From contig CALHDG010000092.1 in the NCBI GenBank assembly GCA_938023075.1, forward strand, positions 1 through 36,133: 36,133 nucleotides of DNA, given 5' to 3'. The stretch is from an uncultured Chitinophagales bacterium (GTDB taxonomy: Bacteria; Bacteroidota; Bacteroidia; Chitinophagales; JAHDHT01). Below are positions 6,138 through 35,121 of this stretch, one piece after another; position 1 is the stretch's first letter; the number at the start of each line of letters is the position of its first letter. Made by a program: the position numbers and the translations under genes. The notes below the pieces were generated by a model, which had not been told where the DNA came from, searched no databases, and saw nothing but the letters and a program-made list of their open reading frames with translations.

Positions 6138-9100
6138 ATGAACGCAAAAAATAATTTTAAAATGACGAAAAAAGGAATAATCTTTTTATTCGCAAGTCTA
6201 ATATCTGCTCTTAGCTTTAATGTTGAAGCTCAAGACAGATGTTTAAATGTGTGTCCCGAACAAGGGGCACTCATCAATGTGTCGGGTGAAGATCCTTCTG
6301 CCGTTAATGGGGTTATCTGTATTGATAATCTCACTGGTGATAATTTTGTAATTCAGAATGGTGCAGAGTTAGGCAATCTTCCTCAGGCTTTGTATACCTG
6401 CTATACGGTGGCAGTAAGTAATACATCAGGAGCTAATTTTGATATTGCCTCTGCTACTTACACTGTTAATAACGTTCAGGCTGAATTAGATATGGCATTA
6501 ATGGGAACAGACGAATGCGGAAGTGTTAGTTCAACAGCTAAAACTTTTGATATCAATTCTTCTTATTGTAATCCTGGAGTAGGGGCTACTTGTATGTTGA
6601 ACCTATGTCTTTGTAATTCAGAAAGTACTGACTTTATTTTTGAATATATACCTTCTGGAGACACCGGAGTTGAATTGTTTATCGTTGTTGATGACGGTGG
6701 AACGGTGGTATCTTTGTCACCAGTTTCTCCGATAAGTGCGGTTGGTCTTGCTCAGGGAAATTATCAAATATATGCCGTAATTTACGATCCGGCTAAAAGT
6801 GGAAATTTACCGACTTTGCTAACAGTTGGGAGCTCTTTGATCGATATACAAAATGAGTTAAGTGATACGGCATGTGGTTCTATTTCAGCAGGGGTTAATG
6901 CTTCAGTAAATGCTGATGCTTGCGGTTGCGAAAGTATTGGAAACCCCGACGTTTGTGTTACCGAAGTGTGTGAATGTAATGGTGAAGTTAATGAAATTAA
7001 ACTATCTACCGAAGGCTATACAGTTGATGGAAATAATCAACAATGGTATATCGTAGTTTCTGGAGGTACTATTGTAACGTCTCAACAATCGGCAGCCGAC
7101 GGTTCGGTTAGTTTTACAGATTTGCCCGATGGAGCACATCAAATATATGCTGTTAATTATGATCCTGTTGCCAATACTAATGTGGCAACAGCATTAGCTA
7201 ATGGCAACGTGTGGACAGATTTTACAACTGGTGTTTCTAATGGAACTTATTGTGCTTCACATACTGGTGCTAAAGATATATTTATCAACAATGCGTGCGA
7301 TTGCCCTGGCGAAGTAGATATTGAAATATCGGATCCTTGCTCTTGTAGTTCAACAGGTAATATTGATTTAGATGGAGATGGAAATATTGATTTAGTAGAT
7401 GATGTAATAACCATAACGGCACCGCCAAGTGATAGTTGGTGTATTACTAATATTTCTACTCCACCCGTATTAGATAACACAGGTAGCCCTTTAAGCAACG
7501 GAACTTGTGCAACGGAAGTTAATCCTGGTATTTATGAATTGACAGTTTACCATCCTGCTGATGGAACCGGATATGGAGACGTATCATTTGAAAGTGCTAG
7601 TGGATCCGGTTCAGTTTTAATAGCAAATTTGATAGGATGTAATTGTGCGGCTGATTGTGTTGCTAATGAAGGTTCGGTTTCTTCGGACGGAACAGCTTAT
7701 TGTGATGATGAAGATACATCGGTCAATATTACAGTAAGCGGAAATGAAAATGGTAGTGACTATAGCACAATTGTGTTAATCACAACAGACAATCCATTAA
7801 CCAGTGATATTTATGATATAGTTGGTGTTGCCGAAGCAAGCCCTGGTATGTATAATTTGGGTACTGGTAGTACAGCATCTTTTAATGTATTGGGTTTAGA
7901 TCCTGGAGATTATTGTATTCATAGTTACAACTTTTTAACAAGTGATTTTAATCCAACAAACGAATTGCAGATTTTAAATGCAGCAGCAGGTAATATTACT
8001 TCAATCGATGCCTTATTAGCCTTAAGTGGAACTGGAGGTAATTTACCAATATGTGGTTCTGTAACTTCAACTGCTTGCGATGCTTTTACGGTGCATCCCG
8101 AGATAGCTTTCAATGCGAGTATTGTGTGCGATGATGCAGATTTGTTTAATTATAGCATAGTTGTAAACAGCATTGCCGGTGGTAGTGGTGGTGCAACTAC
8201 AATTGAAATTAGTGATGGCACTACGGCTTATAATCAAGGTGATGCAATACCGAATGATACAAATGTAACTATTACAGTTAGTGACGGCACTTGTTCAACT
8301 TCTGCAGAACTAAGCGGAAATTGTGAAGATGTTGATTGCCCTGTTTCAGCAACAGCTGATGCATCTAATCAAGCTGCGTGCGGTGGTAGTACTATAGCAT
8401 TATCTGTTGTAAATGTTATAGGTGAATCGGGCTTGTCTTCTTCCGATTATTCTGTAAGTTGGTCTTCGTCAGATGCATCAATTGATGTAAGCAACGCTAA
8501 TAGTGTTAGTCTTTCTAATACTAGTTGTTTAGCAGAAGAAGTTACTTTTACAGCAACTCTAACGTGCATTAATGGTTCTGGAAACATCACAGCCGATGTT
8601 AATGTAACAGTTTATCCTAATGAAGTGCAAAGTTTCATTACTTCATCCGGTGAAGGTTCTTGCGATCCAAGAGTATCGGTTGAAGACCCATGTGGAGACG
8701 TAATATTTACTGGTACGAGAACTCCATCTAACATTGCACCAGATGAAACTGGCGATGCTGTTTGGAATTATATATACCTCTTTCAAGGTAATAATACACC
8801 GGCTATTGGTGCTTGTGCTTTAAGTGGATCTTTCTTAGTGCCTTACCAATGTGCTCCGGTATGTCCAACAGCCGTTCAATTTGCTATTGGTGATGTAGAA
8901 GTTTGTTCAGGCAGTGTAGTTAGTTTACCTAATTTAGAAGATGCCATTTCCACTTTAAATGTAACAGGAAATTTATATGCTGATTATAGCTGGACTTCTT
9001 CCGATGGTTTTAGCAGTGATAGTGGAGAAGCCCAAGATGTAGCACTAACTAATGAAGATTGTGCTCCAAAAGAAGTAGTATTTACCTACGAAATTACTTG

Positions 9101-12100
9101 TGCTTTAGATGGAAGTGTAGTAAGAACTGGTGACTTCACGGCAACCGTATATCCAACCGATATCAGTAGCTTTGTCGAGGTGGAAGGTGAAGGATCTTGT
9201 ATCGTATCTTTAACGCCAATAGCGTCATGTGGTTTATACATAACCGGAGATAGTTTTGTCGCCCAGGAAGGTGAATCAGGAACTACAACACTTTCGGTAA
9301 CTTATGTATTGGGTGGTTGTGATGCCACTTATTCAGCTGATGTTAGTTATGAGTGTGCTGCTCCTATTACCTGCGATGCAGGAACCATTACAGGAGGAGC
9401 TATAAGTTTTGTATGTGATGGAGAATTTGCCATAGCTTCAACCTCTGGTTCAGATGGCTTTTTAAGTTACGTTTTACACGATGGAAATGATACTGGAATA
9501 GGTACAGTTTATGCAACAAGCTTTACTGGTGTATTCACTAATGATGGTACACTTCCAGTAAACGTTGAATTATGTATTTCGGCTGTAGCCGGTTCTGATC
9601 AGGCTGCAGATGGTACTCCTGACCCTAATGGCGAATGTTATGATATTTCTGAATGTTCACAAGTTGTATTTATTACACCAATGGAGGTTGATTTTACTCA
9701 ATCTTGCGATGAGACAACCGGTATGGTTGAGGTAAGTTATACGATCACTGGTGGTGCACCAGAGTATTTACCAGAAGTTAATTCTTATGATGTTGCTGGT
9801 ACGGGGGGTCATACAAATATGGGTTCTTCTGGAGAAAGTTATGTTTTAGGAACTTTCGAGCCAGGAGCTGCAGTCAGTATTTCTGTAAATGATGACGGAA
9901 AAGGTTGCGGACTCGAGGCAGTTGAAGATATCGTTATCCCTTGTGAAATAGTTGTAACTTGTGATGCCGGTTCGGTAGGTTCAGGTGCAATTAATTTTGT
10001 TTGTGATGGCGAGTTTGCCGTGTTCTCTGCAGTAGGTGCATCTGGCAATATTGCTTATGTGCTACACGATGGAGATAATGCAGCAATAGGCACAGTTTAT
10101 AGTACTAGTACAACAGGTGTTTTTGTTAATGATGGTACTTTACCAACTAATCAAGAACTATGCGTATCATCAGTAGCGGGCTCAGATGTAGATGCTGCAG
10201 GCATTCCTGATCCTGATGGTGCTTGCTACGATATTTCTGAATGTGCTCCAGTTGTTTTCTTAACGCCAGTAACCGTTGAAGTAATTCAAGAATGTGATGT
10301 GACCACTGGTTTAGTGGCAATTAGTTATACCATAACAGGTGGCGCTCCAGAGTACTTGCCAAGTGTACATACTTATGCAATTAGTGGACCTGCAGGATAT
10401 ACTAATGATGGTGCTTCTGGTGAAACTTATGCTTACGGTGATGTTAGTGCTAATCAAGATTTCAGCTTCTCCATTGATGATGATGGCAAAGGCTGTTCCA
10501 GTGGATTTGAATTTACTAGTATAGATTGTAATGAAATTGGACCAGTAGCCAATCCTGCCATTACTATTGATAAGATAGCGGATGCTTCGGGCGTAACTGA
10601 TCCAGCAGTAGCTGGGCAGGTAATCAATTACAGCTTTACAGTTTGTAATACTGGTGATGTAGATTTAACAGACGTAAGTGTTGCTGATGATTTAGTAACC
10701 GTTTCTGGCGGACCAATCAGCTTGGCTGTTGGTGAATGTGATGATGCGACATTTACAGCATCTTATACTATAACCGATGCAGATATAACAGCAGGAGAAG
10801 TTGTCAATTCAGCAACAACTTCAGGTACCTATACTGATGCAAATGGAATGGAAACGGTGGTTAATGATAATGATATCGAAACAGTACCATTAGAGGAAGA
10901 TATTTTTGTAGCTATGCCTGCCATTAGTCTTGATAAAATAGCTGATGCTTCGGGAATAACTGATCCGGCAGTAGCAGGGCAGGTGATCAATTACAGCTTT
11001 ACCGTATGTAATACAGGTAATGTAGATTTAACTGATGTTAGTATTGATGATAATTTAGTAACCGTTTCCGGTGGACCGACCAGCTTGGCTGTTGGTGAAT
11101 GTGATGAAACAACTTTTACTGCGTCTTATACCATTACCGCAGAAGATATTGCTTCTGGTTCAGTTGATAATTCAGCAACGGTATCTGGTACGTATACAGA
11201 TCCAAACGGTATGGAAACCGTAGTAGATGATACAGATGAAGTAACCGTTCCATTAGAGGAAGATACTTTTGTGGCTGCTCCATCTATCAGCTTAGATAAA
11301 ATTGCTGATGCTTCTGGCGTAAGCAGCCCAGCAGTTGCGGGTCAGGTTATAACCTATAACTTTACCGTATGTAATACAGGTAATGTAGATTTAACTGATG
11401 TAAGTATTGATGATAACTTGGTATCTGTTTCTGGTGGACCAATTAGTTTGGCTGTTGGCGAATGTGATGCTACAACTTTCACTGCTTCTTATTCAATTAC
11501 CAATACCGATATTGCATCAGGTTTAGTAGATAATTCAGCAACAGTTTCTGGCACATATACAGCACCAAATGGAACCGAAACCATAGTGTCAGATGCTGAT
11601 ACAGCAACAGTACCTTTAACTGCGCCTGCCGAGTGTAACAATGATGCCGGTGTAATGCCTTCAGCAGCGTTAAATATTTGTAATGGCACATTTGCTAATG
11701 CGCCTACAACAGGTGCCACTATTGATGCCGGTAGTGTGTTAACTTATGTGCTTCACAATGGTGAAGGCAGTTCATTAGGTACAACAATCGATTTTAATAG
11801 TACAGGCTTGTTCCTTAACGATGGTAGTTATCCTACAGGAATACAATTATATATTTGTGCGGTGGTCAGTCCAAGCACTGGCGATTTCCCTAATGTAAAT
11901 GCCGATTGTACGTCAATCTCAAATTGTACACCAGTAACATTCTTGTCGCAAGTAAATGTTGATGTTGAAGTAGATTGTACACAAAGCGGAAATTATACGG
12001 TTGTTTTTGAAATTTCGGGTGGTTTGCCAGCCTCGCAAGTAGGTGGTTTGTACAGCGTAAGTGGAGATTTTACCGGCTTGGTTGCCCCTAATACGCCAAC

Positions 12101-12755
12101 AAGTGCAGGTCCATTTAATGCGGGAACTTTCTACACACTAAATATTTCAGACAACAATGGTTGCGGTGCAAATGTAGTTAGTCAAGAAATTCTTTGTGAG
12201 AAACTTCCAATAGAGCTTATCAGCTTTACTGGTGAAACTCAAGCACAGGGTAATATGTTGAAGTGGGTTACTGCTTCTGAAACCGAAAATGACTTTTTTA
12301 CCTTAGAGCGTTCTACAGATGGAATTAATTTCGAATTAATTAATACCCAGAAAGGTGCAGGTACTACAGGTGATATAAATAGTTATACTTACTTAGATAG
12401 AGAGGCTCCAAATGGAATTAGCTATTATAAATTATGGCAAACCGACTTGGATGGTACTCTTAATTACGTTGATATAGTTGCTTTAACGAGAGGGGAAGCT
12501 AGCTTAGCCATTAATAGTTTATTGCCAATACCGGTATTAGAATTTTTAGAACTGACTTATACTAGCGTTTCTGAAAGTCAGGTAGAATTGCAAATTTATG
12601 ATGCCTTAGGTAAACAACTTGGTAGCAAAAGCGTTGGAGCTAACGTTGGTTTAAATATAGAGAATTTGGATGTATCGGTTTATCCTCCTGGTATGTATTT
12701 CTTAACAATCCATCAGGGTGATGTTACTATAACAGAAAAGTTCATAAAAGAATAA
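6138..12755 (+). CDS. Giant modular secreted protein with T9SS type A sorting domain
   Basis: About 2205 residues. Two in-frame ATGs are possible, at 6138 and 6162; the second (MTKKGIIF...) leaves a more standard signal peptide ending VEAQ. The N-terminal third has several Cys-rich beta modules (CLCNSES..., VCECNGEV...). A 196-aa module beginning TCDAG occurs twice in tandem (nt 9372, 9960) and a third, diverged copy begins at 11634. Between copies two and three lie three 121-aa repeats (AISLDKIADASG..DPAVAGQ, CNTG.VDLTDVS), which resemble DUF11/DUF7507-type stalk domains. Near the C-terminus is the common LPIELISFTGE...LKWVTASETENDFF domain, then a T9SS sorting domain with LQIYDALGKQLGS and PPGMYFLTI...EKFIKE. 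This implies export through the outer membrane and cell-surface attachment. Transcription ends at the hairpin 20 bp downstream. Probably an adhesin; the ligand is unknown. Confidence 0.9.
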   Translation: MNAKNNFKMTKKGIIFLFASLISALSFNVEAQDRCLNVCPEQGALINVSGEDPSAVNGVICIDNLTGDNFVIQNGAELGNLPQALYTCYTVAVSNTSGANFDIASATYTVNNVQAELDMALMGTDECGSVSSTAKTFDINSSYCNPGVGATCMLNLCLCNSESTDFIFEYIPSGDTGVELFIVVDDGGTVVSLSPVSPISAVGLAQGNYQIYAVIYDPAKSGNLPTLLTVGSSLIDIQNELSDTACGSISAGVNASVNADACGCESIGNPDVCVTEVCECNGEVNEIKLSTEGYTVDGNNQQWYIVVSGGTIVTSQQSAADGSVSFTDLPDGAHQIYAVNYDPVANTNVATALANGNVWTDFTTGVSNGTYCASHTGAKDIFINNACDCPGEVDIEISDPCSCSSTGNIDLDGDGNIDLVDDVITITAPPSDSWCITNISTPPVLDNTGSPLSNGTCATEVNPGIYELTVYHPADGTGYGDVSFESASGSGSVLIANLIGCNCAADCVANEGSVSSDGTAYCDDEDTSVNITVSGNENGSDYSTIVLITTDNPLTSDIYDIVGVAEASPGMYNLGTGSTASFNVLGLDPGDYCIHSYNFLTSDFNPTNELQILNAAAGNITSIDALLALSGTGGNLPICGSVTSTACDAFTVHPEIAFNASIVCDDADLFNYSIVVNSIAGGSGGATTIEISDGTTAYNQGDAIPNDTNVTITVSDGTCSTSAELSGNCEDVDCPVSATADASNQAACGGSTIALSVVNVIGESGLSSSDYSVSWSSSDASIDVSNANSVSLSNTSCLAEEVTFTATLTCINGSGNITADVNVTVYPNEVQSFITSSGEGSCDPRVSVEDPCGDVIFTGTRTPSNIAPDETGDAVWNYIYLFQGNNTPAIGACALSGSFLVPYQCAPVCPTAVQFAIGDVEVCSGSVVSLPNLEDAISTLNVTGNLYADYSWTSSDGFSSDSGEAQDVALTNEDCAPKEVVFTYEITCALDGSVVRTGDFTATVYPTDISSFVEVEGEGSCIVSLTPIASCGLYITGDSFVAQEGESGTTTLSVTYVLGGCDATYSADVSYECAAPITCDAGTITGGAISFVCDGEFAIASTSGSDGFLSYVLHDGNDTGIGTVYATSFTGVFTNDGTLPVNVELCISAVAGSDQAADGTPDPNGECYDISECSQVVFITPMEVDFTQSCDETTGMVEVSYTITGGAPEYLPEVNSYDVAGTGGHTNMGSSGESYVLGTFEPGAAVSISVNDDGKGCGLEAVEDIVIPCEIVVTCDAGSVGSGAINFVCDGEFAVFSAVGASGNIAYVLHDGDNAAIGTVYSTSTTGVFVNDGTLPTNQELCVSSVAGSDVDAAGIPDPDGACYDISECAPVVFLTPVTVEVIQECDVTTGLVAISYTITGGAPEYLPSVHTYAISGPAGYTNDGASGETYAYGDVSANQDFSFSIDDDGKGCSSGFEFTSIDCNEIGPVANPAITIDKIADASGVTDPAVAGQVINYSFTVCNTGDVDLTDVSVADDLVTVSGGPISLAVGECDDATFTASYTITDADITAGEVVNSATTSGTYTDANGMETVVNDNDIETVPLEEDIFVAMPAISLDKIADASGITDPAVAGQVINYSFTVCNTGNVDLTDVSIDDNLVTVSGGPTSLAVGECDETTFTASYTITAEDIASGSVDNSATVSGTYTDPNGMETVVDDTDEVTVPLEEDTFVAAPSISLDKIADASGVSSPAVAGQVITYNFTVCNTGNVDLTDVSIDDNLVSVSGGPISLAVGECDATTFTASYSITNTDIASGLVDNSATVSGTYTAPNGTETIVSDADTATVPLTAPAECNNDAGVMPSAALNICNGTFANAPTTGATIDAGSVLTYVLHNGEGSSLGTTIDFNSTGLFLNDGSYPTGIQLYICAVVSPSTGDFPNVNADCTSISNCTPVTFLSQVNVDVEVDCTQSGNYTVVFEISGGLPASQVGGLYSVSGDFTGLVAPNTPTSAGPFNAGTFYTLNISDNNGCGANVVSQEILCEKLPIELISFTGETQAQGNMLKWVTASETENDFFTLERSTDGINFELINTQKGAGTTGDINSYTYLDREAPNGISYYKLWQTDLDGTLNYVDIVALTRGEASLAINSLLPIPVLEFLELTYTSVSESQVELQIYDALGKQLGSKSVGANVGLNIENLDVSVYPPGMYFLTIHQGDVTITEKFIKE
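9372..10547 (+). repeat. Two tandem 196-aa CDAG modules
   Basis: Within the giant protein, copies start at 9372 and 9960 (588 bp apart). Both contain ISFVCDGEFA or INFVCDGEFA, YVLHDG, NDGTLP, CYDISEC, YTITGGAPEYLP and DDGKGC. A third, more diverged copy lies at about 11634-12206 (TYVLHNG, LNDGSYP, ISGGLPAS). Confidence 0.88.
10554..11642 (+). repeat. Three tandem 121-aa DUF11-like stalk repeats
   Basis: Units begin at 10554, 10917 and 11280, exactly 363 bp apart. Each contains DKIADASG, PAVAGQVI, FTVCNTG, VDLTDVS, SLAVGECD, TFTASY and VSGTYT or TSGTYT. The near-identity suggests recent duplication. They sit between the second and third CDAG modules. Confidence 0.92.
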
Positions 12756-15998: not shown

Positions 15999-16006
15999 TA
16001 TCTTTG
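15999..16006 (+). promoter_or_regulatory. -7 promoter element TATCTTTG of valS
   Basis: Exact TANNTTTG match ending 6 bp before the ATG at 16013. The predicted transcription start therefore falls at or next to the ATG, implying a leaderless or near-leaderless mRNA. No clear -33 box is seen. Confidence 0.6.
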
Positions 16007-16012
16007 CCAGCT

Positions 16013-18646
16013 ATGGAATTGTCAAAAAATTATAGTCCAGAACAAATAGAAGATAAGTGGTATAGCCATTGGTTAGAACAGGGATATTTTAACTCGACGC
16101 CTAATGAAAAACCGGCTTATACTATTGTGATTCCGCCACCCAATGTAACGGGTATTTTGCATATGGGGCATATGTTAAACAATACCATACAAGATGTGTT
16201 AGCCCGTCGTGCCCGAATGAAGGGCTTTAATGTTTGTTGGGTGCCAGGTACGGATCATGCCTCTATCGCGACAGAGGCTAAAGTGGTTCAACGCTTGCGT
16301 AAGCAGGGCATCAAAAAATCGGATTTGAGTAGAGATGAATTTATGAAACATGCCTGGCAATGGAAAGAAGAACACGGTGGTATTATTTTAGAACAATTGA
16401 AAAAGTTGGGTGCCGGTTGTGATTGGAAACGGACCCGCTTTACAATGGATGACAATTACCATAAACAGGTTATTAAAGTATTTGTTGATCTGTTTAACAA
16501 AGGCTATGTTTTTAGAGGCTTGCGGATGATTAATTGGGATCCGGTAGCGAAAACTGCCTTAAGTAATGAGGAGGTGATCTATCAGGAAGAACAATCGAAA
16601 CTATACCATATTTTATATAGAATTGAAGGACCGGAATATCGTTTTATTACCATAGCAACCACCAGACCAGAAACAATGTTGGGTGATACGGCTGTTGCGG
16701 TTAACCCTAATGACGAACGCTATAAAGACTTAATTGGCAAAACGGCTATTTTACCTTTAATTGGTAGACGAATACCCATTATTGCGGACGACTACGTTGA
16801 AATGGAATTTGGAACCGGTGCGTTGAAAGTTACCCCGGCACACGACCCTAATGATTATGAATTGGGGAAGAAGCATAAGCTGGAAGTAGTTGACGTAATA
16901 AATGATGATGGTACGATGAGCGAGGCTGCCCAACGATACATTGGGGAAGATCGATTATTTGTACGCGAGGAGATTGTAGGAGAGTTGTTTTTTAAAGGAC
17001 ATATTGCGCAAATTGAAACGATTACAAACAAGGTAGGGCACAGCGAACGAACCGATGCTATTGTGGAACCGAAGTTATCGTTACAATGGTTTTTAGATAT
17101 GACGAAACTGGCAACACCGGCTTTAGAAAATGTAATGAACGACACCATTCAATTTTATCCGGCAAAATTTAAAAATACCTATAAGCATTGGATGGAAAAC
17201 ATTAGGGAGTGGTGTTTAAGTCGTCAATTGTGGTGGGGGCAACGCATACCGGCTTATTTTTATGGGGATGGAGAAGATGATTTTGTGGTAGCCGAAACTG
17301 CAGGAGCAGCTTTGCAACTAGCACAACAAAAATCAGGTAATAGCAATTTACAAGCCGGTGATTTAAAGCAAGACGAAGACGTGTTGGATACTTGGGCATC
17401 AAGTTGGATTTGGCCCATAGCCGTTTTTGATGGTTTATTAGAGGAAGCAGATAAAACCGATGTGGATTATTATTACCCAACCAGCGTTTTAGTAACGGCT
17501 CCTGAAATTTTGTTTTTTTGGGTAGCGCGTATGATCATGAGTGGTTATGAATACCGCAATAATTTGCCTTTTAAAGATGTGTATCTAACCGGTATTGTAC
17601 GAGATAAGAAAGGTAGAAAGATGTCGAAATCGTTAGGTAATAGCCCTGATGCTTTAGAGATGATCGGCAAATATGGAGCCGATTCGGTTAGGGTAGGGAT
17701 GTTGCTGGCTTCACCGGCAGGTAACGATTTGTTGTTTGATATGAAATTGGTGGAACAAGGCTGGGGCTTTTGCAATAAAATGTGGAATGCCTTAAAGCTG
17801 ATTAAGATGTGGGAGGTTAAAGAAGGCACCAATGATGAAAATGTAACGGCTATTCACTGGTTTGAAAATAGACTACATCAGGCAATTATTGAGGTTGATA
17901 AATCTTTGGAAACTTACCGGCTTTCAGAAGCCTTAATGACTTGCTACACTTTGGTTTGGGATGACTTTTGTAGTTGGTATCTGGAAATGATTAAACCGGA
18001 ATATCAACAACCTATTGATCAATATACCTACGGAAAAACCATCATGTATTTTGAGGTGATTTGCCGTTTAATCCATCCTTTTGTACCTTTTGTGTCAGAA
18101 GAAATATTTCATATACTTAATGACAATCAAAAAGGCGATGTATGTATTGCCGACTGGCCTCAACCCGAAAAAATTGATGATAAAATAATTGCGCAAGGTG
18201 ATCTAATGAAAGAAGTAGTTACTAAAATACGCGAAATACGAGCTAAAGTAAATTTACCTAAAAAAGATAAAATAACCACTTATTTAAAAGCCGCTAATTT
18301 AGGAACCTATAAAAATTTCAAAACCATTATACAGCAATTAAGTGGTTTAGAAAGTTTGCAAACTATTGATAAAGATTTAGAAGGTGTGGCTTCTTTTGTA
18401 TGTAACAATCAAACCTTTTTTGTAGATACCGGTGTTGAAATAGATGTTGAAGCCGAACGCAAAAAACTGTCTGCCGATATTGAATATACCAAAGGCTTTA
18501 TGGTTAAGGTTCAAAAGAAATTGAGTAATGAACGTTTTGTAAACAATGCCCCTGACCAAGTGGTAAACGCCGAGCGCAAAAAACTGGCAGATGCAGCAGA
18601 AAAAATTGTTTTGTTAGAGGAGCAATTGGCTAAGTTGAACGGATAA
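16013..18646 (+). CDS. valS: Valine--tRNA ligase
   Basis: 877 residues from ATG 16013. A TTG at 16004 is in frame, but it lies inside the -7 promoter box, so the ATG is preferred. Class I synthetase signatures: HMGH at residues 50-53 in PPPNVTGILHMGHML, and KMSKS at 536-540. The editing (CP1) region includes ATTRPETMLGDTA and the GTGALKVTPAHDPNDY motif. The C-terminus is the tRNA-contacting coiled coil (EAERKKLSADIEY ... AERKKLADAAEKI) typical of ValRS. It charges tRNA-Val in the cytoplasm, and the editing domain hydrolyses mischarged Thr-tRNA. Length is normal for the family. A small hypothetical gene follows after 12 bp and may be co-transcribed. Confidence 0.97.
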   Translation: MELSKNYSPEQIEDKWYSHWLEQGYFNSTPNEKPAYTIVIPPPNVTGILHMGHMLNNTIQDVLARRARMKGFNVCWVPGTDHASIATEAKVVQRLRKQGIKKSDLSRDEFMKHAWQWKEEHGGIILEQLKKLGAGCDWKRTRFTMDDNYHKQVIKVFVDLFNKGYVFRGLRMINWDPVAKTALSNEEVIYQEEQSKLYHILYRIEGPEYRFITIATTRPETMLGDTAVAVNPNDERYKDLIGKTAILPLIGRRIPIIADDYVEMEFGTGALKVTPAHDPNDYELGKKHKLEVVDVINDDGTMSEAAQRYIGEDRLFVREEIVGELFFKGHIAQIETITNKVGHSERTDAIVEPKLSLQWFLDMTKLATPALENVMNDTIQFYPAKFKNTYKHWMENIREWCLSRQLWWGQRIPAYFYGDGEDDFVVAETAGAALQLAQQKSGNSNLQAGDLKQDEDVLDTWASSWIWPIAVFDGLLEEADKTDVDYYYPTSVLVTAPEILFFWVARMIMSGYEYRNNLPFKDVYLTGIVRDKKGRKMSKSLGNSPDALEMIGKYGADSVRVGMLLASPAGNDLLFDMKLVEQGWGFCNKMWNALKLIKMWEVKEGTNDENVTAIHWFENRLHQAIIEVDKSLETYRLSEALMTCYTLVWDDFCSWYLEMIKPEYQQPIDQYTYGKTIMYFEVICRLIHPFVPFVSEEIFHILNDNQKGDVCIADWPQPEKIDDKIIAQGDLMKEVVTKIREIRAKVNLPKKDKITTYLKAANLGTYKNFKTIIQQLSGLESLQTIDKDLEGVASFVCNNQTFFVDTGVEIDVEAERKKLSADIEYTKGFMVKVQKKLSNERFVNNAPDQVVNAERKKLADAAEKIVLLEEQLAKLNG

Positions 18647-19208: not shown

Positions 19209-20501
19209 CTATTTCACTGAAAACTTACCCGAATAAGTAACCCCATCTCGCTGCAACTTATACAAGTACATGGCTTCACTAAAATGCCCTACTTTAACTT
19301 GTCCATTGTCACCCAATATTTGAGATAATACTTCTTTACCTTCCATATCAAACAATTGAACGCGAATTGGTTTTTTGCCTTTTTCAATGTCAAAAGTAAT
19401 CACATCATCGGTAGGGTTTGGATATACCTTTAAGTCATTAGAAACTAAGGCAAGAGCAGGTTTAGGCGACAATTTGTACAAACTTTGAAAACCTTTTATC
19501 CAAACTTTTCCAGCAGGGTTCCAATAAAACAAGGCACTTTTATTCGCTTGACCTTTTGAGTTGTGTTGATAATATTCTTTTTTATGGGCATCCATCCAAG
19601 TTAAATTGTTTTTATCCCACTTGTAAAAAGTAGATTGGGTTAATTGATCTTCATTTTCATAGGTATTTACCTTTCTCTCATCAGATATCCATTTACCTTT
19701 AGCATCGTTGCTGTTACCTAAGCTCCAAAAGAAATGTGTACTGTTTAACAAGTCATTTTTTTCAGTATATACATATTCGTGTTTCTTAAAATTGATCCAT
19801 CTGCCAATTTTGATGTCCCATTTCTCAATTTGAGTTTTGTTTACATTACCATAAGCATCATATATGTGCTTAGTTTTGAAATGCGTTTGCCAATCTGCTT
19901 TGGTAGCATTCCAACTGTATTGAATAATTTCTTCTACTCTACCATTATAAATAAATTCTTTTTTATTGGCTTTTCTCCAACGGTTTTTGTGGTAAGTATA
20001 ATATTCCGTTTCGGATAATTGATTTCGATTATCATACTTAAACGTCAATTTGCCATCTTCTTTCCAATCCAATTCATTTTTTTGGTATCTATAAGATGTT
20101 ATCTTTTTAAGATGCCCATTTTCATCATACTCCGGATGCTTTTTCAGATGACCTATCCATTGCTGATTACCTTGATGCCACACATGCCAATAGGCTGTAG
20201 ATTTATTGCCTTCTGCATCAAAACCATATTCATATTTTGAATGGTTTACCCAAGTATCGGTGCCGGGTTGATACGATTGTTCAATTAAACTTTCCACTGC
20301 CTCTAAAGCTGTTGTAGCACCTTGCTTTTTATAAGTGATTTCCTTGGTATCAACCAAATGTTGACTAGTAGATTTTTGAGTGCTTAATTCTTGATCTTTG
20401 TAAAAATTGGTGTTAAAATCTTCCACATTTTTAATATGGCTTTGTGCCATTAGACTAAATGTAAGACAGTTAACCATTAATAATAGCATTAATTTATCCA
20501 T
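19209..20501 (-). CDS. Secreted Trp/Tyr-rich repeat protein with T9SS type A sorting domain
   Basis: 430 residues. A signal peptide ends LMAQ at residue 20. Residues ~75-345 contain about eight imperfect ~40-residue repeats of the form W....K..Y.YD..G......Y.W (for example EYDENGHLKKITSYRY, KHIYDAYGNVNKTQIEKWD), reminiscent of RHS/YD-type beta-hairpin repeats. The last ~75 residues form a T9SS sorting domain: LKVYPNPTDDVITFD, VQLFDMEGKEVLSQ, MYLYKLQRDG...GKFSVK. It should therefore be exported by T9SS and anchored or released at the surface. No catalytic motif. Stop TAG lies one base from the stop of the converging gene. A 13-bp dyad is found 37 bp upstream of the start. Confidence 0.87.
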   Translation of the reverse strand: MDKLMLLLMVNCLTFSLMAQSHIKNVEDFNTNFYKDQELSTQKSTSQHLVDTKEITYKKQGATTALEAVESLIEQSYQPGTDTWVNHSKYEYGFDAEGNKSTAYWHVWHQGNQQWIGHLKKHPEYDENGHLKKITSYRYQKNELDWKEDGKLTFKYDNRNQLSETEYYTYHKNRWRKANKKEFIYNGRVEEIIQYSWNATKADWQTHFKTKHIYDAYGNVNKTQIEKWDIKIGRWINFKKHEYVYTEKNDLLNSTHFFWSLGNSNDAKGKWISDERKVNTYENEDQLTQSTFYKWDKNNLTWMDAHKKEYYQHNSKGQANKSALFYWNPAGKVWIKGFQSLYKLSPKPALALVSNDLKVYPNPTDDVITFDIEKGKKPIRVQLFDMEGKEVLSQILGDNGQVKVGHFSEAMYLYKLQRDGVTYSGKFSVK

Positions 20502-21364: not shown

Positions 21365-23026
21365 TTACTTCTTTTTCCAACCATCTCGCAAAGTAACCGT
21401 CAAATTAAATACTAAATGCGCTGGTTTAGAATCTTGGTCAACATTAAAATAACCTTTCCGCATAAACTGAAATTGGTCCATTACTTTGGCAGAAGCTAAA
21501 CTGGGTTCAACTTGTGCCTTCATAATTTTTAAAGAATCAGGATTTATATAATCCATAAAAGTTGTCCCGTCTTTATGTCCATCAGGTGTGGGGTCGGTAA
21601 ATAAACGGTCGTACATTCTAACCTCTGCTTTAAAGGCATGCGGTAGGCTTACCCAATGAATTACACCTTTGGCTTTCACCCCGCTGGTATCTTCCCCGCT
21701 TTTGCTGTTTTCAATATAAGAGCATTTTAACTCGGTAACCTCCCCACTATCATCTTTAATTACTTCATCGCATTGTATAATATAGGCACCTTTTAAGCGA
21801 ACCACACCTGCTGGTTTTAGGCGGAAAAACTTTCTGGGCGCATCTTCCATAAAGTCTTCTTTTTCAATCCATATTTGATGACTGAATGGAATTTTACGGC
21901 TGCCACCTTCTGGGTTTTCCGGATTATTAATCACCTCCATTTCCTCCACTTTATCTACCGGATAATTGGTAATCGTTACTTTTAAAGGATTCAACACACC
22001 CATCACACGAGGAGCCGTTTTATTTAAATCTTCTCTTACACAAAACTCTAACAGCGAATATTCAATTACATTATTACGTTTCGCAAGTCCTACTTTTTCA
22101 TTAAAATTACGGATGGAAGCAGGTGTAAAACCGCGCCGTCGCAAAGCACTTAAAGTTGGCATTCGTGGATCATCCCATCCACTCACAACACCTTCTTCTA
22201 CTAATTTTAGCAACTTACGTTTGCTCATAATGGTATAATCTAAATTTAACCGGGCAAACTCATATTGCTTAGAAGGAAAGATTTCCAATTTTTCTAAAAA
22301 CCAATCATATAGTGGACGGTGGTCATCAAATTCTAAAGAACATAAACTGTGGGTTACCCCTTCTATCGAATCGCTGATGCCATGTGTAAAATCATACATC
22401 GGGTAAATACACCAATCGTTTCCGGTACGATGATGTTCGGCTTTTAAAATACGGTACATCACCGGGTCGCGCATATGCATATTAGGAGAGCTCATATCAA
22501 TTTTAGCACGTAACACTTTGCTGCCTTCCTCAAATTCGCCGGCTTTCATGCGCTCAAATAAATCTACGTTTTCCTCAATACTGCGGTTTCTAAAGGGGCT
22601 TTCAGTGCCGGGCTTAGTTGGCACGCCACGCAAGGTTGCCATTTCTTCCTGAGTAGAATCATCAACATATGCTAAGCCTTTATTAATTAGAATTGTCGCA
22701 TAATCATATAATTGTTGAAAATAATCAGAAGCAAAAAACAATCGATCTTCCCAATCGAAACCCAACCATTTAATGTCATTTTTTATGGCATCTACATACT
22801 TGGTATCTTCTTTAATGGGGTTGGTATCATCAAAACGCAGGTTAGTTTTACCCTTATATTTTTGAGCAATCATAAAGTTGGTACACAAAGCCTTTGAATG
22901 CCCAATGTGTAAAAAACCATTCGGCTCCGGTGGAAAGCGGGTGTGTACACGACCCTCATTTTTACCCGCTTTTAAATCTTGTTCAATAATTTGTTCTATA
23001 AAATTGAGCGACTTTTTTTCTTCCAT
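21365..23026 (-). CDS. glnS: Glutamine--tRNA ligase
   Basis: 553 residues. HIGH at residues 40-43 in PPEPNGFLHIGHSKA, the DDTNP signature at 66-70, and the KMSKS-equivalent MSKRK at 267-271 in LDYTIMSKRKL. The YPMYDFTHGISDSIEGVTHSLC stretch is characteristic of the GlxRS catalytic core, and the two C-terminal beta-barrels of GlnRS (anticodon binding) occupy roughly residues 335-553. Size matches bacterial GlnRS and is unlike GltX (~470-500 aa). It charges tRNA-Gln directly, so this organism need not rely on GatCAB for glutamine. A TACCTTTG promoter lies 22 bp upstream of the ATG. Confidence 0.97.
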   Translation of the reverse strand: MEEKKSLNFIEQIIEQDLKAGKNEGRVHTRFPPEPNGFLHIGHSKALCTNFMIAQKYKGKTNLRFDDTNPIKEDTKYVDAIKNDIKWLGFDWEDRLFFASDYFQQLYDYATILINKGLAYVDDSTQEEMATLRGVPTKPGTESPFRNRSIEENVDLFERMKAGEFEEGSKVLRAKIDMSSPNMHMRDPVMYRILKAEHHRTGNDWCIYPMYDFTHGISDSIEGVTHSLCSLEFDDHRPLYDWFLEKLEIFPSKQYEFARLNLDYTIMSKRKLLKLVEEGVVSGWDDPRMPTLSALRRRGFTPASIRNFNEKVGLAKRNNVIEYSLLEFCVREDLNKTAPRVMGVLNPLKVTITNYPVDKVEEMEVINNPENPEGGSRKIPFSHQIWIEKEDFMEDAPRKFFRLKPAGVVRLKGAYIIQCDEVIKDDSGEVTELKCSYIENSKSGEDTSGVKAKGVIHWVSLPHAFKAEVRMYDRLFTDPTPDGHKDGTTFMDYINPDSLKIMKAQVEPSLASAKVMDQFQFMRKGYFNVDQDSKPAHLVFNLTVTLRDGWKKK

Positions 23027-29830: not shown

Positions 29831-32059
29831 ATGAAAGTATCAATACCTGCACTGATCATCTCTATTAGTTTATGCTTAAGCATATACCAAACAAAAGCGC
29901 AAAACTTACCCACCATTTATCCATACTTACAAGCCAAAGTAATAGATAGTACTACAAAGGTTATTCAAAACGCTTTTGCCGGTGGATTCAATACCCCACA
30001 AATTTCACCCATCGATTTAAATAATGATGGCATTAAAGATTTGTTTGTATTTGATAAAAAGAACCAACAAATTACTACTTTTTTAAATGGAGGTACCGCC
30101 AATAAAGTAGATTATCACTACGCCCCAAAATATGCCAACTTCTTTCCTGATTTAAAAGATTGGGCTTTGTTGGTTGACTTTGATGGTGATGGTTTAGAAG
30201 ATATTTTTACCCATGCTTCTGCTTATGTAATTGTTTATAAATCTTATTATGAAAATGACCTCATTCAATTTAACCTAGTAGACACCCTATTTTACGAAAA
30301 CAGAAATGGCTTCAAACTAAATGTACTCGTTTCACCGGCAGATTTACCTGCAATTACAGATGTAAATGGTGATGGTGATATTGACATACTTACTTTTGAT
30401 CAACTAGGCATCCATATTGAATATTTTGAAAATCTACAAGTTGAAAAGAACTTACCGGTAGATTCTCTTTTTTTTGAAAAAATAGATGACTGTTGGGGTA
30501 GTTTTTCTGAAAACACGAACGATGCCGGCATTAACCTGAACACTCCATGCAAAGGCGGTGGTGGAGACATTGAAAATACAGGCGAAAGTAATAAACATCA
30601 AGGTTCTACCATAACAGCTTTTGATTATGATGGAGATCAAGATAAAGATATTCTGCTTGGAGATATTGGAAGTAGATTTCTTTCATTTTTACGTAATGGC
30701 GGTGATACCAACCATGCAGAAATGGTAGAAGTCATCCATAATTTTCCAGCCGAAAACAATCCATTTGAGAGTTTCTTTTTTCCAGCTGCTTTTATGTTGG
30801 ATGTGGACAATGATTGCAGAGCAGACCTAATTGCCACTCATAACACAACTTCTAATGCAGAAGATCATAACCATATTTGGTGGTATAAAAATGATGGAGA
30901 CGAAAATGGAATACAATTTAATTTTAAACAACGCAATTTTTTATTAGATAACATAATTGATGTTGGAACAGTTGCGGCTCCGGCAGTGGCAGATATTAAC
31001 AACGATGGTAAAGATGACTTGCTAATTGGAAACAGATTTTACTTTAATAAATCCGACACTTCAGTAAAGGCTAGGTTAGCTGCCTATATTAATATATCTA
31101 ATGAAGATGAAATTTTGTTTCAACAGGTTTCAAAAGATTTTGCAAACCTTAGCCAGTACAATATGGTTGGTCTCTATCCTGCTTTTGGTGATGTAGATTT
31201 AGATGGCGATACTGATATGATTTGCTCTGACGATGAGGGGTATTTTCATTTTTTTAGAAACGAAGCCGCAGAAGGAGAATGGATGAATTTGCAAGCCGCT
31301 CAGCTTTATATTGACAGTTTTAAGTTAGACAATAGAGCCATCCCTTTTTTATATGACTATGATGAAGATGGCTTGTTAGATATTATTACCGGAACTAAAA
31401 GTGGTACCTTAAACTATATTAAAAACATAGGCAACGAAAATGAAATTCACGTAGAGCTTGGTCAATCTTTTCTAGGTTTGGTAAAAGAAACCGACTTAGG
31501 CAGCCCTATCGGTTATAGTGCACCATATATTCACGTTATTGACGAAAGTGACAAAGCCTATTTGTTGGTGCATTCCCGCTCAGGCAATATTGCCATTTTT
31601 GATGATTTACAAGCTGCCGAATTTACAAAAATAGAAGCAAACTATGGTGCAATAAAAACCGGTGGTGGAGGCGGCATTGCAGTTAGTGATTTCAATAAAG
31701 ATGGTTTATATGAAATTATTATCGGTACAGAGTCCGGTGGTGTTCAACTGTTTAGTCAAAAGCAAACGGAGCCGGTTTCAATAACTTTTAATACTCAACA
31801 TTGTGCTAAAGATACCATTAATGCTATTGAACTTAATGAAGTTGCCCCTATACAAATCTATCCAACTATAGCTAACGATCAATTGTTTGTTGAAACTACA
31901 CGAAACCAAAAATTATCATACAAAATATTTAATGTAAAAGGGCAGCTTGTTTTGGCAGGTAATTTGCAGGCTAAGGCTATAGAACTGAACAACTTACCGA
32001 AAGGTTTGTTCTTTTTAAGTATAACCAACAACTCCATGCTACGCTTTTTCAAAAAGTAA
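29831..32059 (+). CDS. FG-GAP/VCBS repeat protein with T9SS type A sorting domain
   Basis: 742 residues; a signal peptide ends TKAQ near residue 24. At least nine acidic calcium-loop motifs of the DxNxDGxxD kind are visible, including DLNNDGIKDLFVFD, DFDGDGLEDIF, DVNGDGDIDIL, DYDGDQDKDILLGD, DINNDGKDDLLIGN, DVDLDGDTDMI, DYDEDGLLDII and DFNKDGLYEIIIG. These are integrin-like FG-GAP/VCBS blades that form a beta-propeller. A T9SS sorting domain follows: IQIYPTIANDQLFVE, YKIFNVKGQLVLAG, LPKGLFFLSI...RFFKK. Expected at the cell surface, calcium-stabilised, possibly adhesive; no catalytic domain seen. It is the first gene after the MITE-like element. Confidence 0.92.
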   Translation: MKVSIPALIISISLCLSIYQTKAQNLPTIYPYLQAKVIDSTTKVIQNAFAGGFNTPQISPIDLNNDGIKDLFVFDKKNQQITTFLNGGTANKVDYHYAPKYANFFPDLKDWALLVDFDGDGLEDIFTHASAYVIVYKSYYENDLIQFNLVDTLFYENRNGFKLNVLVSPADLPAITDVNGDGDIDILTFDQLGIHIEYFENLQVEKNLPVDSLFFEKIDDCWGSFSENTNDAGINLNTPCKGGGGDIENTGESNKHQGSTITAFDYDGDQDKDILLGDIGSRFLSFLRNGGDTNHAEMVEVIHNFPAENNPFESFFFPAAFMLDVDNDCRADLIATHNTTSNAEDHNHIWWYKNDGDENGIQFNFKQRNFLLDNIIDVGTVAAPAVADINNDGKDDLLIGNRFYFNKSDTSVKARLAAYINISNEDEILFQQVSKDFANLSQYNMVGLYPAFGDVDLDGDTDMICSDDEGYFHFFRNEAAEGEWMNLQAAQLYIDSFKLDNRAIPFLYDYDEDGLLDIITGTKSGTLNYIKNIGNENEIHVELGQSFLGLVKETDLGSPIGYSAPYIHVIDESDKAYLLVHSRSGNIAIFDDLQAAEFTKIEANYGAIKTGGGGGIAVSDFNKDGLYEIIIGTESGGVQLFSQKQTEPVSITFNTQHCAKDTINAIELNEVAPIQIYPTIANDQLFVETTRNQKLSYKIFNVKGQLVLAGNLQAKAIELNNLPKGLFFLSITNNSMLRFFKK

Positions 32060-32214: not shown

Positions 32215-33270
32215 ATGAACTACAATAGATACAAATTAAAATCTATTTCAGGCTCTGAATTAGACAGTTACTTGCAACGAGGTTGGTACAGGATGGGTTT
32301 GTCTATTTTTACCACCCATTTTTTAATATTTGACGAACAATTATACAATTCTGTTTGGCTGCGTCTACCACTTTCCAATTATCAAGCACGAAAGAGTTTA
32401 AGAAAAATAAAACGAAAAGTTGACAATCGCTTTACCGTAAAAATTAATAAAGCCATTTTTAATACGGAAAAAGAGATCTTATTCGAAAAATACAAATTGA
32501 ACTTTAAAGGTGATCTATATTCTTCATTGCGGATGTATATGTTGGATAACGAATACTACAACATTTATAATACGTTAGAATGCTGTGTGTATGACGAAAA
32601 TGAACTGATTGCATTCAGCTATTTTGATGTAGGGGAAACAAGTATGGCTAGTATATTGGCTGCCTTTAATCATAATTACAGTTCATATAGCCTTGGCATG
32701 TATACCATGATCGAAGAAATTAACTATGCCTGCGAATTAGGCTTAAAACATTATTATCCAGGGTATTTTGTTCCTGATTATGGTCGTTTTGACTACAAAT
32801 GTCGTATAGGAGAAACTGAATACTATGATTACTTCTCCAAAAAATGGCTACCAACTCAAACATTTAACGAAAGTAAAAATATTGCGATTCAGCTTAAAAA
32901 TAAAATCTATGATATTTATAACATCGTATCAGAAAAAGGTTTAAACGCCTTTATCATATTTTACCGTAATTGGGAGTTGGGCGATTTTAGCCCAAGCGAA
33001 GGTACTATATACAACCAACCACTATTTTTATTATGCGAGTACAACGATCTTTATTTTATTATTGAATATGATTTGATTAGAAAATACTATCGCTTATCAC
33101 TGTTGAAAAAGCCTGAATTTTTTAGATTTAATCGAAATGATACCACTTTCGAAAATACCACTATTCTTAATATTTACAATTTGTTAGAATGTGATTTATT
33201 AATGCTAATTTCTGAAAACTTCGGAGATATTTTAAGCTATCTCTTAAGTGATAAAAACACTGAACTATAA
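32215..33270 (+). CDS. Arginyl/leucyl-tRNA--protein transferase-like protein lacking the N-terminal Cys cluster
   Basis: 351 residues. Residues ~130-200 read like the C-terminal domain of Ate1/Bpt aminoacyl-tRNA-protein transferases: LIAFSYFDVGETSMAS, SSYSLGMYTMIEEINYACELGLKHYYPGYF and YGRFDYKCRIG, matching the family pattern DV...S......SLG.Y...EI..A..LG..Y.YLGY......M.YK. Residues 17-70 also follow the N-terminal domain (YLQRGWYRMG ... WLRLPLSNYQARKSLRK), but the family's paired cysteines are absent. The ~145 residues after 205 (acidic, Tyr/Leu/Ile-rich) exceed normal Bpt length (about 235-250). Such enzymes add Leu or Arg to protein N-termini for degradation. Whether this one does, or is a repurposed GNAT-fold transferase, is open. 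Confidence 0.75.
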   Translation: MNYNRYKLKSISGSELDSYLQRGWYRMGLSIFTTHFLIFDEQLYNSVWLRLPLSNYQARKSLRKIKRKVDNRFTVKINKAIFNTEKEILFEKYKLNFKGDLYSSLRMYMLDNEYYNIYNTLECCVYDENELIAFSYFDVGETSMASILAAFNHNYSSYSLGMYTMIEEINYACELGLKHYYPGYFVPDYGRFDYKCRIGETEYYDYFSKKWLPTQTFNESKNIAIQLKNKIYDIYNIVSEKGLNAFIIFYRNWELGDFSPSEGTIYNQPLFLLCEYNDLYFIIEYDLIRKYYRLSLLKKPEFFRFNRNDTTFENTTILNIYNLLECDLLMLISENFGDILSYLLSDKNTEL

Positions 33271-34110: not shown

Positions 34111-35121
34111 ATGGCTTTAGTACTTTCTGATATTGAAAGTGATACTTTTGATTGTAAAGTAGGTAGGGCAGAAACCAGTTTATTAAACACAGTTAATTTT
34201 GAACAAAGCCTCATTGAACAGTCCATTGATTTTTGCAGATTAAAAGTGAATAGTGCAGATTTAAACAACTATTCAGCACTGGCTAAATTAAACATGCCCT
34301 ATCAATTTTGTGGTTCTATTTTAAAATATAAGATGGATTTCTTCAACTTACCTAAGCCATCTTATAAAAATAAAAATTTAACTTTTGAGGTGTATAAGCC
34401 ATCAACCCAACAAAATATTTTAGCTAATTTAGTTAATGAAACTTTTATAAATGACCCAATCGGATACTATAAAAACCACTTACTTTCAAAAATTTTAACC
34501 AAGCAGCAAGAAGTAAAATGTATGGCGCAATGGTACGCAAAGCATTGTGATGAAAACATCAACATAATGGTTTTAATGAAAGCCGGCGATCAGTATATTG
34601 GCTACATCAGCATTTTTAAAAAAGAACCAAACTTGGTTGACACCCCTATTGCCGGCGTATTGCCAAAATTTCAGGGGCAAAAAATGTTTGACGATTTGCG
34701 AACTTACCGCCATTTATATTGCCTCGAAAATAACATACAATACGGCACGGCCGGCGCACGCATTGAAAATAATTACAGTCAACAAACTTTTATTAACGAT
34801 GGGATGCAGCAAATAGCTAATCAATCTATATATATAGTTACGCCATTTTTAAGTAAAGCTGATAGTGCCAAACATACAAAAGCCAATAAATTACAAGCCG
34901 ACAAAACCATTTTTGAGCAACTGCATCAACAACAAGGTATTCATTTTTTTATGGAAGGTGATAAGCAAGCCTATCAAAAAAGAAGCCTTTATATAAAACT
35001 TTCTGCAATTGCAAGTTACACCCTCTCCGTTCCGGTTAATTTAAATGATAAAAAATTAGTATTGGTTAAATATTTTGACAAGGCAGGCGCATTGTGCCTA
35101 ATTAATTGGTTCGAGCATTGA
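34111..35121 (+). CDS. Tandem GNAT-like acyltransferase of unknown substrate
   Basis: 336 residues, no signal. The N-terminal ~75 residues (VGRAETSLLN, then FCRLKVNSADLNNYSALAKLNMPYQFCGSILKYKMDF) resemble the first lobe of WecD-type nucleotide-sugar N-acetyltransferases. Residues ~95-245 contain GDQYIGYISIF and VLPKFQGQKMFDDLRTYRHLYCLENNIQYG, then ARIENNYSQQTFINDGM, which fit a GNAT second lobe (strand, P..QG..M loop, N.....F...GM). The QGQ in place of R/QxxGxG/A makes the acetyl-CoA loop atypical. The final ~80 residues are a separate segment I do not recognise. It may act on a sugar or surface glycan, by analogy only. Confidence 0.65.
   Translation: MALVLSDIESDTFDCKVGRAETSLLNTVNFEQSLIEQSIDFCRLKVNSADLNNYSALAKLNMPYQFCGSILKYKMDFFNLPKPSYKNKNLTFEVYKPSTQQNILANLVNETFINDPIGYYKNHLLSKILTKQQEVKCMAQWYAKHCDENINIMVLMKAGDQYIGYISIFKKEPNLVDTPIAGVLPKFQGQKMFDDLRTYRHLYCLENNIQYGTAGARIENNYSQQTFINDGMQQIANQSIYIVTPFLSKADSAKHTKANKLQADKTIFEQLHQQQGIHFFMEGDKQAYQKRSLYIKLSAIASYTLSVPVNLNDKKLVLVKYFDKAGALCLINWFEH

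Follow-up and report, generated by a model that had tools for sequence, protein, structure and literature searches.

The window, which is the whole stretch of DNA that was analysed (36,133 nucleotides), contains an ATG-started ORF of 351 codons at 32215–33270 on the plus strand. The gene upstream, on the same strand and separated by a gap of 155 bases, encodes a T9SS-type FG-GAP protein, and the gene downstream is on the opposite strand; this gene context is uninformative on function. A Por secretion C-terminal sorting domain is found on three proteins of the window (29831–32059, plus strand; 6138–12755, plus strand; 19209–20501, minus strand), one with FG-GAP repeats and one with DUF7507 repeats. 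The window also encodes two class I aminoacyl-tRNA synthetases, one of the tRNA-synt_1 type (I/L/M/V group, valyl-type arm) at 16004–18646 on the plus strand and one of the E/Q type at 21365–23026 on the minus strand. A 336-aa ORF a short way downstream of the gene studied here (34111–35121, plus strand) exceeds the cut-off of no Pfam or NCBIfam model. Of 198 related genomes, 52 carry a homologue, which rules out chance or a frame artefact at 32215–33270, and dozens of homologues repeat the reading frame, the C-terminal extension, and the segment without cysteines. The features of the ORF are as follows.

32215–33270, plus strand: whole ORF, a putative cysteine-less Ate1/Bpt-type transferase of 351 aa (ATE_C match, PDB sequence matches, predicted fold)
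32215–32370, plus strand: residues 1–52, N-terminal strands that overlay the substrate-binding sheet of Ate1 and start past the Ate1 CxxC position (predicted model, structure alignment)
32305–32364, plus strand: residues 31–50, IFTTHFLIFDEQLYNSVWLR, in place of YRPxCxxCxxC of Bpt, with D40-E41 (32332–32337) at the Ate1 Cys-Cys (profile alignment, Bpt comparison)
32389–32424, plus strand: residues 59–70, basic helix RKSLRKIKRKVD, the counterpart of the Ate1 tRNA acceptor-stem helix (conservation and model; function by homology, PMC10115844)
32428–32853, plus strand: residues 72–213, predicted GNAT catalytic core, with ATE_C at 86–203 (Pfam, predicted model, structure matches)
32755–32766, plus strand: residues 181–184, family signature YPGY, which is YLGY in Bpt and yeast Ate1 (alignments)
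32788–32799, plus strand: residues 192–195, FDYK, which corresponds to the KMxYK motif conserved in Ate1/Bpt (alignments)
32854–33267, plus strand: residues 214–351, C-terminal alpha/beta domain that ends the ATE-like proteins (predicted model; Pfam negative)

Enzymes of the Ate1/Bpt type transfer an amino acid from tRNA onto other proteins; the defining reaction of the family moves Arg or Leu to N-terminal Asp/Glu. The preliminary description had related the protein to Ate1 and Bpt, and both the sequence matches (ATE_C, PDB) and the predicted fold bear this out. The Pfam model ATE_C (PF04377) matches residues 86–203 with 57.8 bits, over its cut-off of 25, which all three paralogues of the genome exceed. 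The model ATE_N (PF04376), which holds the N-terminal cysteine, gave no match to the window protein even at E ≤ 10. Bpt from S. meliloti covers positions 2–72 of the ATE_N profile. In a sample of 296 genomes of the phylum, ATE_C was found in 18, and the ATE_N cut-off was passed in 4, with the listed matches beginning at profile position 15 or later. The NCBI arginyltransferase equivalog test was made with the PRK01305 models and their curated cut-offs. All seven models match the window protein, each far below its own cut-off (best, 81.9 vs 170 bits), and S. meliloti Bpt is over its cut-off (416.5 vs 267 bits). A PDB sequence search with the window protein alone placed yeast ATE1 structures on top (residues 122–219, E = 1.3e-8), Ate1 structures were also retrieved with the family profile (E = 3.8e-13), and hhalign against S. 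meliloti Bpt gave E = 5e-9 over 205 columns. As judged by these comparisons, the window protein is neither a standard Ate1 nor a standard Bpt: it is recognised by ATE_C, is not recognised by ATE_N, lacks the cysteines, and falls below the NCBI equivalog cut-offs.

Activity of yeast ATE1 has been linked to its cysteine cluster (PMC9884297). It is disputed whether the Ate1 cluster carries zinc or iron–sulfur and whether its part is in catalysis, stability, or oxygen sensing (PMC10115844 vs PMC9884297). In the window protein, residues 31–45 are IFTTHFLIFDEQLYN. When 25 family members were aligned as a profile with K. lactis Ate1, the Cys-Cys ligand pair fell at D40-E41, but the stretch itself scores weakly (1.7 bits), so this placement is a guide and no proof. 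For an independent comparison, we used four proteobacterial Bpts (S. meliloti, Azospirillum, Aeromonas, and Acinetobacter), all of which have the C-x-Y-L element and the RPxCxxCxxC segment. The window family starts past the C-x-Y-L element and has IFTTHFL..., without cysteine, where the Bpts have RPxCxxCxxC. Across 128 aligned homologues, CxxC or CC is absent from the cysteine-cluster part of the domain, and columns 40–41 mostly hold G, D, E, or N. Two of the 128 have an N-terminal CxxC or CC, both ahead of the domain, and their starts are probably misplaced or over-extended. A substitute cysteine site at residues 34 and 38, seen as TCHFLC in some members, is not general, as both cysteines are found in 21 of 128 homologues and neither in the window protein. 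The loss of the cysteines, which had been read from this one sequence, is supported by the K. lactis alignment, the 128 homologues, and the four Bpts. What had been described as a feature of the gene is real, but it is a property of a phylum-wide family beyond the window gene alone, and a single aberrant gene is ruled out. Together with the ATE_N results in the phylum sample, this makes the cysteine-less state a feature of the branch rather than a recent loss in the window gene. That the protein would be cofactor-free, as had been proposed, is reasonably taken as a consequence of the missing ligands in the sequence. A search of the open-licence literature gave no paper that describes Ate1/Bpt without the cysteines in Bacteroidota.

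An AlphaFold2 model was obtained from 58 family members, with pLDDT 89.8 and pTM 0.88. In a Foldseek search with this model, the 32 best matches are all Ate1. VIA-align of the model gave Z = 19.2 with human ATE1 (219 residues, rmsd 3.1), Z = 17.1–17.5 with K. lactis Ate1, and about 14.8 with MprF and FemX; the next structural matches after Ate1 are the streptothricin enzymes Sbb17/Sba18, FemX, and MprF, at Z = 13–15. Residue 56 of K. lactis Ate1 aligns to residue 1 of the model, which fits the missing N-terminal CxxC part. In ATE1, the helix that matches residues ~59–70 enters the major groove of the tRNA acceptor stem (PMC10115844). The preliminary description had allowed that the best structural match might prove to be an unrelated GNAT family or that the tRNA-binding surface might be lost. 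The best match is Ate1, and the basic docking helix is retained, with a mean of 5.2 K/R in the 11 columns 59–69 over the 128 homologues. Among the same homologues, R50, D138, G183, Y194, and K195 are nearly invariant, and the P of YPGY is kept in 126. Since the change from YLGY to YPGY is in the active-site region, the donor or the acceptor may differ. By its predicted fold and its core residues, the window protein is Ate1/Bpt-like, with the Ate1/Bpt core spanning residues ~1–226.

Comparison with known systems locates these differences. The proteobacterial Bpts (S. meliloti, L184; Aeromonas, L186; Acinetobacter, L188) share the GNAT core, the basic helix, the SLG and YK motifs, and the size of the core, but they have C-x-Y-L, YRPxCxxCxxC, YLGY, and no C-terminal domain, whereas the window family lacks those cysteines, reads YPGY, and is usually extended by ~138 residues. 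The predicted fold is matched best, over residues 1–226, by eukaryotic ATE1 (human 8tzv; K. lactis 7wfx/7wg1; yeast 7tif/8e3s), which shares the D, SLG, GY, and YK motifs. In contrast to ATE1, the window protein lacks the first ~55 residues with their CxxC, has D-E for CC, and is ~160 residues shorter, and its C-terminal domain has no recognised counterpart. FemX, MprF and the other aminoacyl-PG synthases, and Sbb17/Sba18 have the GNAT-type aminoacyl-tRNA transferase fold, but their structural similarity is lower, there is no significant sequence similarity, and their known acceptors are not protein N-termini.

A first contig scan with the single protein as query found no relatives; a scan of named genomes with an alignment as query found 338. 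The best 80 of these come mainly from Saprospiraceae and Bacteroidota related to them, with Phaeodactylibacter, Lewinella, and Flavilitoribacter among the genera. Most homologues are 340–375 aa long with the same C-terminal region, and a group of 229–251 aa is without it. The genome of the window has three divergent paralogues, on contigs 92, 102, and 48, which are in separate parts of the tree and so are not recent duplicates. Two divergent ATE-like ORFs, mostly adjacent, are present in 12 of 76 loci; in the paired loci L104, L108, L112, L116, L122, L124, L127, L133, L144, L145, L146, and L179, the GWYRMGQ type is preceded by a GWRC/GWRP type. A constant partner gene of the long form was not found in the loci examined; the context differs by clade. 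The clade-varying neighbours, named by reading sequences and not by family searches, are UbiD-like, cytochrome-c-like, and OmpH/MurI-like.

The paralogue on contig 48 is located directly downstream of clpS and aat, all on one strand, with a gap of about 48 bases from aat to its TTG start.

Contig 48 of the same genome (L032), 7701–9892, minus strand: clpS, aat, and the ATE-like paralogue, consecutive, a compact N-degron gene set (gene order)

The gene order in this genome puts Aat, the leucyl/phenylalanyl-tRNA-protein transferase (PF03588), in the same pathway, but Aat is a separate Pfam family and occurs in addition to the ATE-like genes. The gene aat is directly before bpt in Aeromonas and Acinetobacter too, an order matched by this one paralogue of the window genome. 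A clpS-aat neighbourhood was seen for 1 of 62 ATE-like genes, namely the divergent paralogue on contig 48 and not the window gene, and neither clpS nor aat was found near an ATE-like gene in 80 further loci. A rough hand estimate of the chance of this placement among 62 loci is about 1 in 100. Aat is present in 50 of 55 genomes with an ATE-like gene and in 97 of 143 without one (Fisher p = 5.6e-4, descent ignored). In one complete genome (G086), an ATE-like gene is present with neither ClpS nor Aat. As to another acceptor, which the preliminary description had also raised, the clpS-aat-ATE order argues that at least the contig 48 paralogue still serves the N-degron pathway. We consider an N-degron role likely for this paralogue but no more than plausible for the window gene, because the window gene does not share that order, the association ignores descent, and G086 lacks both partners.

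We think it probable that the window protein belongs to the Ate1/Bpt branch and works, independently of metal, as an aminoacyl-tRNA-protein transferase, and that the family most likely feeds the ClpS N-degron pathway. In the proposed mechanism, the basic helix (residues 59–70) would dock in the major groove of the tRNA acceptor stem, while the GNAT core (residues 72–213) would hold the aminoacylated 3′ end. An amino group of the acceptor protein, probably N-terminal as in Ate1 and Bpt, would then attack the ester and receive the amino acid. The tagged product would be read by ClpS, either directly or after further addition by Aat, and then degraded. The cleft, which the metal cluster shapes in Ate1/Bpt, would be shaped here by protein contacts, perhaps aided by the C-terminal domain. 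In this phylum, the family lacks the metal-binding cysteines of its yeast and proteobacterial relatives and thus offers a natural test of cysteine function. A natural branch with the fold and the core residues but no such cysteines would allow catalysis to be told apart from metal-dependent regulation. If this proposal is true, Ate1-type tRNA-dependent N-degron tagging would be extended to Bacteroidota, including the organism of the window with its clpS-aat-ATE run.

A broader form of the proposal is tentative and less likely than not: metal-free Ate1/Bpt activity could be branch-wide, with the C-terminal domain, found in no other architecture, taking over part of the cleft, and the several divergent paralogues of a genome, some adjacent and one in the clpS-aat-ATE operon, could split donor or acceptor specificity. 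It is rather unlikely that the window protein uses aminoacyl-tRNA with an acceptor beyond protein N-termini, such as a peptide natural product, the cell wall, a lipid, or protein side chains. FemX, MprF, and Sbb17/Sba18 each have an acceptor of their own, the YPGY change sits in the conserved core, proteolysis genes were not found around the window gene and most homologues, and a division of roles is suggested by the presence of three divergent paralogues in the genome. However, Ate1 is clearly closest by both sequence and fold, one paralogue adjoins clpS and aat, and a conserved biosynthetic neighbourhood was not found in the loci examined. Could the protein be a pseudo-enzyme, one that gave up catalysis together with its cysteines, acts as a regulator or as a tRNA-binding partner, and perhaps pairs with an adjacent divergent ATE-like protein, as found in some Saprospiraceae? 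The link between the cluster and activity in yeast (PMC9884297) and the loci with two ORFs would suit such a role, but the core residues common to Ate1 and Bpt are almost invariant in 128 sequences, which is unexpected for a dead enzyme and makes this reading improbable. An ordinary acetyl-CoA-dependent GNAT acetyltransferase that is Ate1-like in fold only is very improbable, since the acetyl-CoA loop (R/Q)xxGx(G/A) is missing in all 128 homologues, Ate1 ranks above every acetyltransferase in the fold comparison, and the weak Acetyltransf_6 match of the window protein just below cut-off (21.9 vs 22 bits) is non-discriminating, as S. meliloti Bpt also matches that model, above its cut-off.

What is the function of the C-terminal domain in the proposed transferase? 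About 145 added residues had been noted, which is close to the ~138 aa (residues ~214–351) measured here. Modelled alone, the domain is a confident alpha/beta fold (pLDDT 84.6), and it has no Pfam family in 58 members. Structure searches gave no clear relative: the best Foldseek match has E = 1.1, at the level of unrelated models, and VIA gave Z = 6.6 for a function-unknown protein and 4–5 for frataxin- and chaperone-like folds, also in the range of unrelated models. In 198 genomes, no free-standing copy was found, as matches with E < 1e-4 are all at the end of ATE-like frames except one, a fragment at the end of a contig (G040:C8), perhaps the remainder of a split gene. The domain is less conserved than the core, with a mean frequency of the commonest residue of 0.41 vs 0.66. 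Our guess is that it might help to bind substrate or to stabilise the cleft. On a Bernardetia plasmid (L187, 4956–6014), an ATE-like core is followed by DUF952 in place of the usual C-terminal domain, in a protein annotated only as a DUF952 protein, and this fusion suggests that the C-terminal module can be exchanged.
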